Below, one piece after another: positions 32,935 to 39,824 of a stretch of 46,402 nt of DNA. Below the pieces are notes generated by a model. The model saw only the letters and a program-made list of their open reading frames with translations, had not been told where the DNA came from and did not search any database. The DNA comes from Candidatus Acidiferrales bacterium (GTDB lineage Bacteria > Acidobacteriota > Terriglobia > Acidiferrales > UBA7541): positions 1 through 46,402 of the forward strand of contig JANWJR010000057.1 of the NCBI GenBank assembly GCA_025451835.1, given 5' to 3'. The first letter of the stretch is position 1. Each line of letters begins with the position of its first letter. A program made the position numbers and the translations under genes.

Positions 32935-34073
32935 GTGAAATGCCAAGTTCCACAAATTCAGTTTTTGGTTACGGGCAGGGTTGGATGGTCGGCGCCATCG
33001 CGTTCGCCGTCGCAGCTTTGTCACTCCCCCTCGTGATTCGATTCTGCGCTCGCTGGCGGTTTTATGATTCACCGGGGCCGCTGAAGATCCACTCGCATCA
33101 GGTTTCCAGGCTCGGCGGTATCTCGATAGGCCTCGCCATCTTGGCCGGAGCCGTCATCGTTGCTCCAACCTCTGGCTATGCTTTGTGGCCGTTCCTTGCG
33201 GCTCTCATCCTGGTCTGGTTGGCGGGATTGATCGACGATTTTCGCGGTCTTTCACCCGCCTTTCGGATTGCGGCACAAATCGCCGCTGCGATTCTCCTGT
33301 GGCATGGCGGATGGCGGATTCCCTTCGAGGGCGCACCCGGCCTCGTCGGGCAGTGCATCCTTGTAGTGCTGTTCGTCAGCGCCTTCAATTTCCTCGACGG
33401 CACCGACGGCTTGGCGGCGGGAATCGCGGCAATCATCGCACTCGGATATGAAATTCTGCCGGGATTCGCCGCGAATCACGTGGATTCCGCCCTCGCCTGG
33501 GCCGTCGCCGGTTCCTGCCTTGGCTTTCTGTTGTTTAATTTTCCGCCGGCGAAAATCTTTATGGGAGACTCCGGGAGCAACGTTCTCGGGTTCGCGACGA
33601 TATTTCTCGATCTCTGTTTTTATCGGTCCCTCGGCATTCGCTTCGACACAGGCTCTGCCGATGGGGCGGACTTCACTCGGACAGCCGCCGCAGCCTTGAT
33701 TTTCCCGCTCTTTATCGCGGCCCTTCCCCTTCTCGATGCGGTGCTCGCGGTGCTACGCCGCTTGCTTAACCGACGTTCCCCGTTTTGCGGCGATCGCCGG
33801 CACTTTTATGACTTGTTAATGGTGCGCGGCTGGTCGAACCGTAAGGTGGCGCTCGCGTGTTATGCCGTTACAGGGACGCTGGTTATCGTTGCCCGATCCG
33901 AAATAAAGGACGACACTGGATACCCGATCGCACTGTTTGCGTTGGTTCTGGTAATCCTCCTGTTTGTAGCGATTCCTCTGGGTTCGTTGCGAATGAAAGA
34001 TCGGGTTGGACGGTGGAGCGCGGCGCCTCATGCACCCAAGGCCTTGCCGCGCCAGGAATCAGGATTGGGTTGA
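32931..34073 (+). CDS. Undecaprenyl-phosphate sugar-1-phosphate transferase (WecA/MraY family)
   Basis: The 380-residue membrane protein has about ten helices and the family motifs: RLGGISIGLAI (60-70), AGLIDDFRGLSP with D102-D103, FNFLDGTDGLAAG (152-164), IFMGDSGSNVLGF and HFYDLLMVRGWS near the C-terminus. It joins the first sugar phosphate to undecaprenyl phosphate, and is the only initiating enzyme in the cluster. Start is GTG at 32931, coupled to the CapA-like stop; ATG 32940 is the alternative. Its end overlaps the convergent gene at 34059 by 15 bases. Confidence 0.9.
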   Translation: MSEMPSSTNSVFGYGQGWMVGAIAFAVAALSLPLVIRFCARWRFYDSPGPLKIHSHQVSRLGGISIGLAILAGAVIVAPTSGYALWPFLAALILVWLAGLIDDFRGLSPAFRIAAQIAAAILLWHGGWRIPFEGAPGLVGQCILVVLFVSAFNFLDGTDGLAAGIAAIIALGYEILPGFAANHVDSALAWAVAGSCLGFLLFNFPPAKIFMGDSGSNVLGFATIFLDLCFYRSLGIRFDTGSADGADFTRTAAAALIFPLFIAALPLLDAVLAVLRRLLNRRSPFCGDRRHFYDLLMVRGWSNRKVALACYAVTGTLVIVARSEIKDDTGYPIALFALVLVILLFVAIPLGSLRMKDRVGRWSAAPHAPKALPRQESGLG

Positions 34074-37000
34074 TTGGGTGGAGATAATCGTTCTGGTGCC
34101 GCGGCGATTTCGCTCCTGAGGCGAGGATTGCTTTTGTAAATTCCCGAGCTGGACGAGTAGCCGGCGCAGCTTGGCGCGTTCTTCGAGTTCCATCTCCACC
34201 ACTTCGAATGCCCGCGCCTGAGTGTTTGCTCCGCGCACGATGGTCTGCGCCTTCACTGGCTTTTGATCCGTGCTGATCCGCAGGCTCACCACGCTCCCCG
34301 GATGCAAGCTTTGTACGCATAGGGCCACTCCGCCACCCAACGCCATTTCCGGAATTTCAAGGCTGCAATTGTCCTTTAGGTTCGTCGTTTCCGCAGAGAC
34401 CGGTCGTTCCAGCCGCAGCCTCGGATAGCGCCGCTGCCGGATCGCGGGAGAGTTCGGATCCGCATCCAGCGGCTCAATCGAAAGCTCCGCGACGCTCAGT
34501 CCGCTGCGCGGAACGAAACTTCGCAGCCATTCGGAATCAATCTTTGCCATTGCTTGCGCGGCCACCAGTCGCAATTCGCTCGGGCTGGCCCAGCGCCACG
34601 CCTTGCGGCCTTCGGAAATTTTTCGCAGAACGCTTTCCGCTCCGGCTGTTCGCAGGCGCCCCAGCGCTTCAATCGCTTTGAGGCGCAGGTAATCGGTCCC
34701 GTCTTTCGGCAGATCGCCTTCCGCCAGCCTCACCAGCCGCATGTCCGCAAGTTGTTCGCCGCTCAATCCTATTTCGTCCACGGCAAGCGGTCGTATCAGA
34801 CGGTCGAGTTGATCGAAGAGCGACAGCAGCAGCCTGCCTCGCTCGGAAGCGCCGCTTCCCGCTATTTGCCGTACCACGCGGTCGTGCGCCGTCCGCTTCC
34901 ACTCTTTCATCCGGGCAGGCAGCACGTTTTCCACTGTGTCCAGGTCCATGCGCGTGAGCAAACCGATTGCATCGATCGCGTCGTTTGGCTCCCCGTGCCG
35001 AAGCTGCTTCCGCAAATGATCGAGCCCCTCGGCTCCCAGCGCTTGCATCATCGAGATCAGAAGCTCGCAATCGTCGCGAAAACCCGCACGGCTGAATCGC
35101 ATGGCAAGTTGCGCTGACGCCGGTCCCGGCATGCGCCGCAACAGTTCGGATAATCCAATCGGAAGCGTGCCGTTTCGCAGCGTTTCGTCGATGAATTCGG
35201 GCAACCGGTCTTCGACCGCAATCCTCGGCCGCATGGTCTTTCCCACGCCTGGCCGTTCCGATTCTACGTAGTCGATCAACTCCACAGCCCGCTGTATCGC
35301 GGGATAAGCGCGCTTCGTTGTGGCTTCCTGCGTCAGCCGCACGAACGCCGCGCCCACCAGGCTTTGCAGTTCCGAGTCGTGCTCTTCGGCGAGCTGCACG
35401 CCGGTCTGGCGGATCGTGCTTATCAGCAATCGTTCGCTGCACTTCGCGTAGAGTCCGGCAAGCTCAGCCAGACCCATGGCCGCGTGGCCCCGCGATTCCG
35501 GCGATTGTGCCGTTATGCAGCTTGCATACGTTCCCAGAACGCTTTCCGCTGCGTCCTTCTCGCCGCGCGACAGCAGGCCTTCGACATATTCCCGCACCTT
35601 CGCTGGCGGAACGCACCACGCCTCCGGCGATTCCAGCACGGCCTTCTTCTTCTCGTCGGGAACCTGCGCCCAGAACTGCTGCGCCAGCATGTCCGTGTGC
35701 GATTGCACGTCGAGCCCCGCGCGCTTCATCCGTTCTTCGTATACGCCCAGAATCTTGCGCAGGCCGTCCAGCTCTCCGCTCATTTCATTCAGCAGATTCC
35801 GGACCGAGTTCACTTCGATGTCGCCGCGCTCGTAGCTCTCCAGCGCAAACCGGATCGCGATGTGCTCCGCAAGTTTCAAAAGCGTCGGCTTATCGGCTGA
35901 TTCCGTGGGGGATTGCGCGGCCAGCGCCGACAGTGCTTGGCTCACCGTGAATCGAGCGCGCCGGGGCAGCGTCGAAAGACGCGATTGAAATGCATTCGGA
36001 TCGAGCTTGTCCTTCGCGGAATCAGTCGTGCGAGCAATCTGAGCGAGCACTTGAAGAATTCCCTGCAGTTCATCTTCGTGCAGAGTCATCAGGCCGGTTT
36101 CAACCGCCATTGAACCTGTCGCACCCCGTGCGGCCCGGCTCCCGCGAATTCCCGCCGTAGCATTCGTCCACCGGCCCGCCGTGGCGCCATCACCTTCATT
36201 GCCCCCGGTGCTGCCTGCTCGCCATTTGCGCGTGCCGGATCCGCCTCGGGGTGCGGCTCCGGTTCCAGACCCGCCCGCACGGCCATCTTGTCCGGGCGCG
36301 CCGCCTCTGCCTATCGCCGGCCGATGCGCCCCTTCCACGCCCCAGCCGTCAGAAGTTCCCACTGCTTCGAGATTGACGTTCGGTCCCCGACCGGTACCGC
36401 CCAAAAAGCCGCCGCCCGGCGCACTACCCGAAATTCCAGCAACGCTTCCGCTGATTTTCGGCGAGCCTTTGTCTCCGCTCGGATTCGCCAAGTCTTTATT
36501 CAACCAGAAACCTCCGGCGTTCGGCTCGAGCGGGCTACCTTCACCCTCGCTGCCAACGATATTCCATGCGCCTGGCGACCCCGCCCCGGCTCCAACCACG
36601 CCGCTGCCGTTGGTTGATTCATTGCCGTCTTTTTTGAGCCAAAATCCTCCGGCGTTCGGATCAAGCTTACGCCCGCCACCGCTGCCGCCGACGATATTCC
36701 ATGTCCCAGACCCTGTCCCGGACGATCCGGAACCGTCTCCGGTTGGTGCGTGTTCCGCGCCCGCACCGCTCTCGCTAACCGGAGTCATTGAGCCTAGTAA
36801 AGAAGCTGCATTGGCTTGGAGCAGATTCGGGTCGCCTGAATAGTTACCAAGTGCCGGCGAACCGTTTCCACCGGCGTCGGCGGCTCCCGAACCACCACGG
36901 CCGTCGCCGAATCCGGAACCTGACCCTAAGCCGGATCCTGAACCCGAGCCAGCAGACCCTGCGTCGCCGTCGCTGTAGCCGCCTGTTCCATGGCCGCCCG

Positions 37001-37781
37001 GTCCAGCGCTCCCGTATCCAAACCTTCCGCCTGACCCGCCGTCGCCGGGTCCATTTCCAAGCCCGACGGCGCCGCTCCCAAGTTCATCTATCCCACGCGG
37101 CCCGGGTCCGCCCGATCCGTCGCCTGAGCTTTTCGTGCCCTCCGCCGCGACGATAAGTTGTAGCAATCTCTCCGGATCGCTGAAGAGTTCATTGGCCTGC
37201 TCGGAATCAAGCCCCAGCGTGCGCGCCGTTAATTGCGCGGCAATCGTCGACTTGGCCACGGCTGAATCGGCCGGCACGAAGCAAACTTCGTTCACGTGAA
37301 TGTGTGGATCGCCCTGCAACGCGGCTTTGAGTTGCTCTGCTAATTGCGTCGGTTTGGCTCCCGTACCGGTTGGAAATCCGCGCGCCAGCCGCCCCAGGCT
37401 GGCCTGGGTCATCTTGGGGGAGAAATGAATGCTCGCTATGCCCGCTGCAGAAAGCATCCGTGCGAAGCTCTTTTCGGAGGCGGCGGATTCCAGCGGTGTT
37501 CCGTCAAGGAGAAGCTGCTCTCCGGAAACGGCCAGCAGCAGGCCGGCCTGATCGTCCGTGCCGGAGCCCAACGCGGTTCGCAGCTCGTTCCAAGCCGTGT
37601 CGTATTGTTTCACCGTGCGAGGATGTCCAAAGTCATACATCCTGGCGAACTTGAGTAAGATATTCAGGCTGCGCACAAAGCCGCGCGCTGCTGCCGGTCG
37701 AGTTTGCGAGTGTGTCGTCACGGTGTGGGGCAGACGCCCCGCCTCTGCTGTAAATATGAGGCTTAGCCCATGCCGAGACAA
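34059..37781 (-). CDS. Large protein: helical N-domain, Gly-rich linker, HEAT-like repeats, PilZ-like C-terminus
   Basis: This 1240-residue protein has four parts. Residues about 30-210 form an alpha-rich domain (RSLNILLKFARMYDFGH). Residues about 215-555 are a Gly/Ser/Asp-rich linker with two copies of WNIVG...PNAGGFW. Residues about 560-1130 are helical, HEAT-like, with LRLKAIEALGRLRTAGAESV typical of a repeat. Residues about 1140-1215 resemble a degenerate PilZ domain (YPRLRLERPVS, MALGGGVALCV). The start is uncertain: TTG at 37781 opens the frame but GTG at V22 or ATG at M48 is possible. The gene ends 15 bases inside the convergent WecA-like gene. The function is unknown; a c-di-GMP-linked scaffold is inference. 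Confidence 0.75.
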   Translation of the reverse strand: MSRHGLSLIFTAEAGRLPHTVTTHSQTRPAAARGFVRSLNILLKFARMYDFGHPRTVKQYDTAWNELRTALGSGTDDQAGLLLAVSGEQLLLDGTPLESAASEKSFARMLSAAGIASIHFSPKMTQASLGRLARGFPTGTGAKPTQLAEQLKAALQGDPHIHVNEVCFVPADSAVAKSTIAAQLTARTLGLDSEQANELFSDPERLLQLIVAAEGTKSSGDGSGGPGPRGIDELGSGAVGLGNGPGDGGSGGRFGYGSAGPGGHGTGGYSDGDAGSAGSGSGSGLGSGSGFGDGRGGSGAADAGGNGSPALGNYSGDPNLLQANAASLLGSMTPVSESGAGAEHAPTGDGSGSSGTGSGTWNIVGGSGGGRKLDPNAGGFWLKKDGNESTNGSGVVGAGAGSPGAWNIVGSEGEGSPLEPNAGGFWLNKDLANPSGDKGSPKISGSVAGISGSAPGGGFLGGTGRGPNVNLEAVGTSDGWGVEGAHRPAIGRGGAPGQDGRAGGSGTGAAPRGGSGTRKWRAGSTGGNEGDGATAGRWTNATAGIRGSRAARGATGSMAVETGLMTLHEDELQGILQVLAQIARTTDSAKDKLDPNAFQSRLSTLPRRARFTVSQALSALAAQSPTESADKPTLLKLAEHIAIRFALESYERGDIEVNSVRNLLNEMSGELDGLRKILGVYEERMKRAGLDVQSHTDMLAQQFWAQVPDEKKKAVLESPEAWCVPPAKVREYVEGLLSRGEKDAAESVLGTYASCITAQSPESRGHAAMGLAELAGLYAKCSERLLISTIRQTGVQLAEEHDSELQSLVGAAFVRLTQEATTKRAYPAIQRAVELIDYVESERPGVGKTMRPRIAVEDRLPEFIDETLRNGTLPIGLSELLRRMPGPASAQLAMRFSRAGFRDDCELLISMMQALGAEGLDHLRKQLRHGEPNDAIDAIGLLTRMDLDTVENVLPARMKEWKRTAHDRVVRQIAGSGASERGRLLLSLFDQLDRLIRPLAVDEIGLSGEQLADMRLVRLAEGDLPKDGTDYLRLKAIEALGRLRTAGAESVLRKISEGRKAWRWASPSELRLVAAQAMAKIDSEWLRSFVPRSGLSVAELSIEPLDADPNSPAIRQRRYPRLRLERPVSAETTNLKDNCSLEIPEMALGGGVALCVQSLHPGSVVSLRISTDQKPVKAQTIVRGANTQARAFEVVEMELEERAKLRRLLVQLGNLQKQSSPQERNRRGTRTIISTQSTQS
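36496..36710 (-). repeat. Two copies of an 80-base direct repeat within the glycine-rich linker
   Basis: Copies at 36496-36575 and 36631-36710 are offset by exactly 135 bases (45 codons). Shared blocks are acgatattccatg (36556 and 36691) and cctccggcgttcgg (36511 and 36646). On the minus strand each encodes WNIVG, a variable part, then PNAGGFWL and KD. Flanking linker codons are not conserved between copies. Confidence 0.85.
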
Positions 37782-37864
37782 TGGTACGCGTGTCCTGTTT
37801 GGTACTACCGTCTAGTCCTATGTTATTGGTGGGACGAAGGTTCTGGCACTTAAAGGCCGCGGAA

Positions 37865-38597: not shown

Positions 38598-39824
38598 TCA
38601 AGATTGGGATGAATCCGAGCGGGCAGGTTCGCCCGTCGCGTCCGATTCCCGCGATTCCGAATTTGGGATGCTTTCGTCGAACGCCGAAATTTTTTCGTTG
38701 GGCTTGGAATCCGCCGCTTTCGGCTCCGGAGCTTCTTCGAGCGATTCCGAGGACCACGCGTCGCCGGGAGCCGCGGCTGCCACGGCCTTCTCGGTCGTCT
38801 CGGACTCTGGCTTCAAAGGTTCAGAAGTCGACGCGGGCGCAGCGGAAACCGGAGCCGCCATTTCGGCGGGCGCACTTGTGCTGGTCCCCGCGGTCGCCGG
38901 CGCAGCCCGCAGGGCTTCGAGTCGCACCGCCAGAACGTCCACGAGAAGATTCACGATCACCTTCGCGCCGCTGCCGTCCGGATCTTTTTCCGGATTGTAG
39001 GCAGTCACTTCGATCGCCGCAAGATGCTTCTGCTTCGCGAACACTTCCAGCGCTTCGCGTACTTCCGCCAGCGACAGCCCGCCGGATCCCGGATAATTCG
39101 TCGCCTGGAAATCGGCGATCACGTCCACATCGAAGTGCAGGATGAATTCGTTGCCGTTCCCGTGGATCCGTGCAATCGCTTCTTCGGCGGCGGCCGCCGC
39201 CCCCTTCCGTCGTACGTCCTCCGCCAGATAACGGCGCAAAGGCGAGCGCCGCAAGACGTCCTCTTCGGGCTGATCGAGCCGTGCCACGCCAAAAAGCGCT
39301 AGGTCCGGTTCACGCACCAGAGGGGGTTCGCTCCAGAAGCGAATCATCTCCGCGGCGCCGCGTCCGGTCAAATGCGACACCACCATGCCGTCCACGCATC
39401 CGGACGGAGTCGTCGCCGGCGTGTTCAAATCCGCGTCGCCATCCATATAGATCATGCTGATGTGGCGGAAGTAGCGGCGCGCTCCGGCCACCGTCGCCAG
39501 AGCTACCGAACAATCGCCGCTTAGGATCAACGGTAGCGCGCCCGATTTCACGGCCGCTTCCATTCGAGGTTTCAGCGCTTCGATCGATTTCAGAATGGCG
39601 GGAATATTTCTCGCGCGCGGACTTTCTTCATCGAGCTTGTATACCTGAGGAGGGTCATCGCCCAGATCGCTGATTTCGTAGCCGACCGCGCGAAGCCGCT
39701 CCGCCAACCCAGCGGCTCGTAAGGCTGCGGGGGCCTTTTCGTGGCCGGGCGACATCGCCGCCGCGCTCGTCGGCGCGCCCAGCAAAGCAATCTTATTCGC
39801 TTGCCGGGCGATTCTAGCGGCCAC
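38598..39824 (-). CDS. Arginase/agmatinase-fold protein with altered metal ligands
   Basis: Residues 10-305 follow the ureohydrolase fold: LSGDCSVALA (101-110), IYMDGDADLNTP (125-136), HFDVDVIADF (230-239) and EVTAYNPEKD near 272-281. In arginase the metal ligands are His, Asp, His, Asp, Asp and Asp. Here the first His is Cys105 (GDCS in place of GDHS) and the second His is Asp130 (DGDAD in place of DAHAD); D128, D132, D232 and D234 remain. The last 100 residues are Ala/Pro/Ser/Glu-rich and probably disordered. Start is GTG at 39824 after AAGGAGCGG; ATG 39828 is out of frame. The substrate cannot be named. Confidence 0.75.
   Translation of the reverse strand: MAARIARQANKIALLGAPTSAAAMSPGHEKAPAALRAAGLAERLRAVGYEISDLGDDPPQVYKLDEESPRARNIPAILKSIEALKPRMEAAVKSGALPLILSGDCSVALATVAGARRYFRHISMIYMDGDADLNTPATTPSGCVDGMVVSHLTGRGAAEMIRFWSEPPLVREPDLALFGVARLDQPEEDVLRRSPLRRYLAEDVRRKGAAAAAEEAIARIHGNGNEFILHFDVDVIADFQATNYPGSGGLSLAEVREALEVFAKQKHLAAIEVTAYNPEKDPDGSGAKVIVNLLVDVLAVRLEALRAAPATAGTSTSAPAEMAAPVSAAPASTSEPLKPESETTEKAVAAAAPGDAWSSESLEEAPEPKAADSKPNEKISAFDESIPNSESRESDATGEPARSDSSQS

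Follow-up and report, generated by a model that had tools for sequence, protein, structure and literature searches.

What is the protein encoded on the reverse strand at positions 34059-37781 of the window (the whole 46,402-nucleotide stretch of Candidatus Acidiferrales DNA analysed here), and is it still controlled by c-di-GMP? An earlier note on this DNA had read in its 1240 residues a fusion of a helical N-terminal domain, a 340-residue glycine-rich linker, a HEAT-like part and a degenerate PilZ-like end, and had proposed a c-di-GMP-responsive scaffold. The order of these parts stands: Pfam, AlphaFold models and structure matches give an α/β N-domain, then a Gly-rich linker, a solenoid of HEAT/ARM-like type and, at the C-terminus, a PilZ domain. 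The view that no named family has this order also holds for Pfam and NCBIfam, whole-protein scans of which matched no family model, and the partial literature covered by a search for PilZ together with HEAT repeats did not describe such an architecture. Judged from the sequences, chance is ruled out as the origin of the domain order, since orthologs across the family share it in full and the linker is in frame in each complete member of the long-linker clade (clade A, see below).

The open reading frame of 1240 codons (34059-37781, minus strand, stop included) is conserved among relatives, but its full length probably overstates the product. Several relatives have stop codons 5' of residue 21, while an ATG lies at this column or at most two codons away in most of 15 relatives, which makes the GTG at 37721-37719 the likely start and the coding sequence probably 34062..37721 (minus strand; about 1220 residues; residue numbers below refer to the 1240-residue frame). 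The TTG first assumed to be the start falls within a conserved 29-bp element, TAGTACCAAACAGGACACGCGTACCATTG (37779..37807, minus strand; half-sites TAGTAC and GTACCA), for which the pattern TAGTAC-N14-GTACCATTG gives a single match in each of 16 out of 20 genomes of the genus, its reversed control matching none, and which sits 5' of the HEAT-PilZ gene in every locus read. The element abuts what we infer from sequence to be a sigma70-like promoter (37753..37781, minus strand; -35 TTGTCT, 17-bp spacer, -10 CATATT), whose spacing is kept 5' of several orthologs, and it is possibly a dedicated activator site; sigma54 was ruled out for it by spacing. Rfam found no riboswitch within the window. Between a GAGG and the start codon lies a short GGGGC-N4-GCCCC hairpin (37719-37748, minus strand), also present in several relatives (L002-L004, L006 and L009), through which a remote ribosome-binding site could come within reach of the start.

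The N-terminal domain (residues 25-217; 37131..37709, minus strand), delimited by alignment and an AlphaFold model, is not all-helical as had been supposed: the model, of moderate confidence (pLDDT 75.7), is mixed α/β. It resembled nothing above chance among PDB sequences and gave no Foldseek match at E<=0.001. Of the 149 Acidobacteriota genomes sampled, 44 encode diverged relatives of this domain, and fusions in other Acidobacteriota join it to HEAT repeats in several cases and to an HD-GYP-type HD domain in one. No membrane-like segment is present anywhere in the protein, the highest 19-residue Kyte-Doolittle mean being 1.2.

The reading of the central part as HEAT-like is borne out. Residues 569-1100 (34482..36077, minus strand) are assigned to a HEAT/ARM-like α-solenoid on the strength of model helices, HEAT_2 matches in relatives and structure matches. 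The AlphaFold model of the C-part, built with 89 sequences (pLDDT 86.5, pTM 0.80), has a helical solenoid of about 30 consecutive helices in stacked pairs, at high confidence from model residue 150 onward, and then a six-stranded barrel with a helix. Structures of ARM, importin and alphaRep proteins match its solenoid; over long spans the rmsd is high. Among 27 relatives, 19 match Pfam HEAT_2 (best E 8e-9), and two relatives reach the cut-off of 27.7 bits (L149, 28.4; L025, 27.8), whereas the window protein stays below it at 10.9 bits.

As to the C-terminal end, its predicted fold is that of PilZ, and its own sequence score comes just short of the family threshold. Pfam PilZ matches the last 133 residues with E=1.6e-4 and 22.4 bits, where the cut-off is 22.5, and relatives exceed this cut-off over the same columns (up to 43.1 bits, E down to 5.5e-11), the family being matched in 12 of 27 relatives. 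In the C-part model, strands 568-642 and helix 645-658 form the six-stranded barrel with its C-terminal helix, and VIA-align superposes model residues 560-663 on more than 10 solved PilZ chains (Z 10-13.4, rmsd mostly 1.9-2.8 Å). The best of these matches have Z ~13 and rmsd 1.9-2.3 Å over 95-100 residues, and the PilZ domains matched include those of BcsA, MapZ, MotI/DgrA, Alg44 and YcgR. Together with motif counts, this places the domain at residues 1114-1216 (34134..34442, minus strand).

Whether this domain still binds c-di-GMP is a separate matter. The canonical binding motifs are RxxxR and (D/N)xSxxG (PMC12943098; PMC10333796), and binding sites vary, with RxxxR a main indicator (PMC10333796). 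RxxxR is present ahead of the first strand (R1117/R1121) and invariant in all 89 aligned rows, as is the glycine at C-part position 596 (89/89). The second motif reads E1145-M-A-L-G-G1150, so that the end had rightly been called degenerate. Its serine (C-part position 593) is found in 0/35 clade A rows vs 53/54 of the others, and just 2/89 rows, both distant, have D or N at its first position. Since one distant relative, L169, keeps RxxxR and a complete D-M-S-L-G-G, the site was probably eroded stepwise. The source genome (2.22 Mb, 79.5% complete) encodes diguanylate cyclase domains (6 GGDEF matches, with GGDEF or GGEEF in 5/5 inspected) and canonical PilZ proteins (13 PilZ matches, about 5 of 7 read being canonical by pattern), and it therefore probably makes c-di-GMP; the loss of the site is thus specific to this family lineage rather than pathway-wide. 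The case for direct c-di-GMP control of the window protein is weakened by these motif comparisons.

Members of the HEAT-PilZ family are frequent in Ca. Acidiferrales (Acidobacteriota), where a genome usually has several paralogs, and their sequences come for the most part from metagenome assemblies. The window protein has a match in 78 of 89 genomes of the same taxonomic family, often in several paralogs, and the C-part is also present in other Terriglobia families. No second paralog was found in the source genome, of which incompleteness may be the cause. Linker lengths were compared in 107 near-complete proteins, 46 of clade A and 61 others. Clade A, supported at 100/99 (bootstrap/SH-aLRT, 49-row tree) and recovered as one group in 200/200 bootstrap trees, carries linkers that span 88-447 residues (with a median of 184), whereas outside it the short form is the rule (about none to 179, median 50). 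Linkers of more than 120 residues in L146, L147 and a few others outside the clade indicate that moderate lengthening occurred more than once. Relatives with and without a long linker thus both exist, all clade A members having one, and by sequence the window gene is a long-linker (clade A) paralog of an Acidobacteriota family with N-domain, solenoid and PilZ.

Its own linker is indeed rich in Gly (32%) and Ser (12%), with the length corrected to about 338 residues (218-555; 36117..37130, minus strand). Bacterial Gly-rich disordered regions usually have no assigned role. This one carries two copies of a WNIVG...GFW[LF] module, WNIVGGSGGGRKLDPNAGGFWLKKD (residues 361-385; 36627..36701, minus strand) and, from the same search, WNIVGSEGEGSPLEPNAGGFWLNKD (residues 406-430; 36492..36566, minus strand). 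One or two copies of the module are present in 15 of 17 orthologs from the genus of the window gene (g1) and its neighbour, where shuffling predicts close to 0; the internal spacing is almost fixed and duplication frequent. Across 95 genomes of the order, no protein other than these carried the module at E<0.001. Near the C-terminal end of the linker, RWTNATAGIR (residues 537-546; 36144..36173, minus strand) represents a Trp motif, [RK]WxxA[ST]AxxR, that in a slightly looser pattern occurs in 43/46 clade A members, with 0.14 expected by shuffling, and in 0/45 members outside the clade with a linker of more than 20 residues. These conserved motifs argue that the linker is not a featureless spacer. 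Antisense to it runs a proline-rich frame of 220 residues (36181-36843, plus strand), a shadow of the Gly-rich sequence and probably no gene.

The neighbourhood does not fix a function, no neighbour being constant across loci. In the genus of the window gene, the upstream order ispH, arginase-like gene, HAD gene and then the HEAT-PilZ gene is seen in 13-14 of 18 loci, some of them incomplete. The arginase-like protein of the window (38598-39824, minus strand) has a low-complexity Glu/Ser/Pro/Ala-rich C-terminal extension reaching about 100 residues past its enzyme domain. The polysaccharide cluster that, in the earlier note, the gene was said to follow does adjoin it on the opposite strand, but the arrangement is only convergent, a homologue of its WecA-like gene is found in 9 of these 18 loci (some incomplete), and other genera have different neighbours; it was set aside as a functional partner. 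At loci of the genus g2 type, A is followed by B in 27/37 and secA lies downstream in 26/37; in genus g2 (L051-L087), a tandem of both paralogs frequently precedes secA, mrp, a gamma-carbonic-anhydrase-like gene and hisS. This secA neighbourhood was not seen in the genus of the window gene and was not used as evidence for its function. The distant HEAT-PilZ paralogs L165, L172 and L173 lie near Ser/Thr kinase genes, with a gene for an FHA-GAF-guanylate cyclase protein between at L172.

The reading we prefer, to which we give an even chance, is that a c-di-GMP-type PilZ protein gave rise to a cytosolic scaffold whose site is now degenerate and whose linker is a motif-bearing tether. The protein would be soluble and cytosolic, its solenoid would bind partners, the N-domain would be held on the flexible tether of some 340 residues, and the short Trp motifs of the tether might dock either on partners or on the protein itself. 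In clade A, PilZ would serve mainly as a protein-interaction module, or as a weak or altered sensor, rather than as a standard c-di-GMP receptor. What gives the protein this look of a sensor turned scaffold is that part of the binding site was lost on the same branch on which the long glycine-rich tether was gained. The same fact tells against it, since linker expansion and serine loss on one branch make their association a single event, and the invariance of RxxxR speaks for a surviving role of some kind in ligand binding or structure. A scaffold that does respond to c-di-GMP, which would bind by way of RxxxR and the glycines that never vary and would change the contacts made with partners by the solenoid or the tethered N-domain, is a credible but somewhat doubtful reading: it has in its favour the unbroken conservation of RxxxR and glycine 596, the variability of known sites, the GGDEF and canonical PilZ proteins of the genome and the N-domain relatives with an HD-GYP-type HD domain, and it has against it the replacement of D/N by E and of S by A, the clade-wide absence of the serine and a full motif in only one distant relative.

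It could also be that the clade A pocket has switched to a different nucleotide or metabolite, held by RxxxR and an altered second motif; the invariant arginines and glycines fit this, as do the new residues seen consistently in clade A (E, then N/A/T/G). This is very improbable, and no conserved nucleotide-synthesis neighbour was found at the loci examined. Neutral low-complexity expansion, leaving a passive spacer without specific function, would fit a linker that varies from 88 to 447 residues within clade A, its Gly-rich composition and the weak tandem repeats in its DNA (36868-36950); the Trp motif (43/46 vs 0/45) and the often duplicated, near-fixed WNIVG/GFW module (15/17) make it unlikely. 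Quite unlikely, too, is that PilZ has become peptide-gated, the Trp motifs of the clade A tether docking in the vacated PilZ pocket or a solenoid groove; were this true, the tether itself would set the on/off state once set by c-di-GMP.

The family offers a natural experiment in which a sensor motif decays stepwise while a long motif-bearing disordered tether appears, and the coexistence of short- and long-linker paralogs in many genomes makes a change from receptor to scaffold directly testable. The conserved short motifs likewise make their role in bacterial Gly-rich disordered regions testable, in a family for which neither Pfam nor NCBIfam has a full-length model and which is widespread among soil Acidobacteriota that have been little studied.

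Several known kinds of protein come near the window protein. The short-linker paralogs (clade B beside secA, and the f2 and f92 forms) have its three folded parts in unchanged order and differ by a linker of about 0-180 residues (median 50), the PilZ serine (53/54) and the absence of the Trp motif. The distant paralog C (L165, L172, L173) also has N-domain, HEAT-like part and PilZ (E 1e-10 to 5.5e-11), but lacks the linker and lies near a Ser/Thr kinase gene. With HEAT repeat proteins (PF13646, PF02985) the window protein shares an α-solenoid, matched by HEAT_2 in most relatives; it differs in staying under the Pfam cut-off and in being fused to PilZ and the N-domain. Finally, like the PilZ proteins of PF07238 (YcgR, MapZ, Alg44, BcsA, MotI/DgrA), it has the PilZ fold (Z ~13, rmsd 1.9-2.3 Å) and keeps RxxxR, but its second motif is degenerate (E-M-A-L-G-G) and the domain follows a Gly-rich tether and a HEAT/ARM solenoid in one fused chain.
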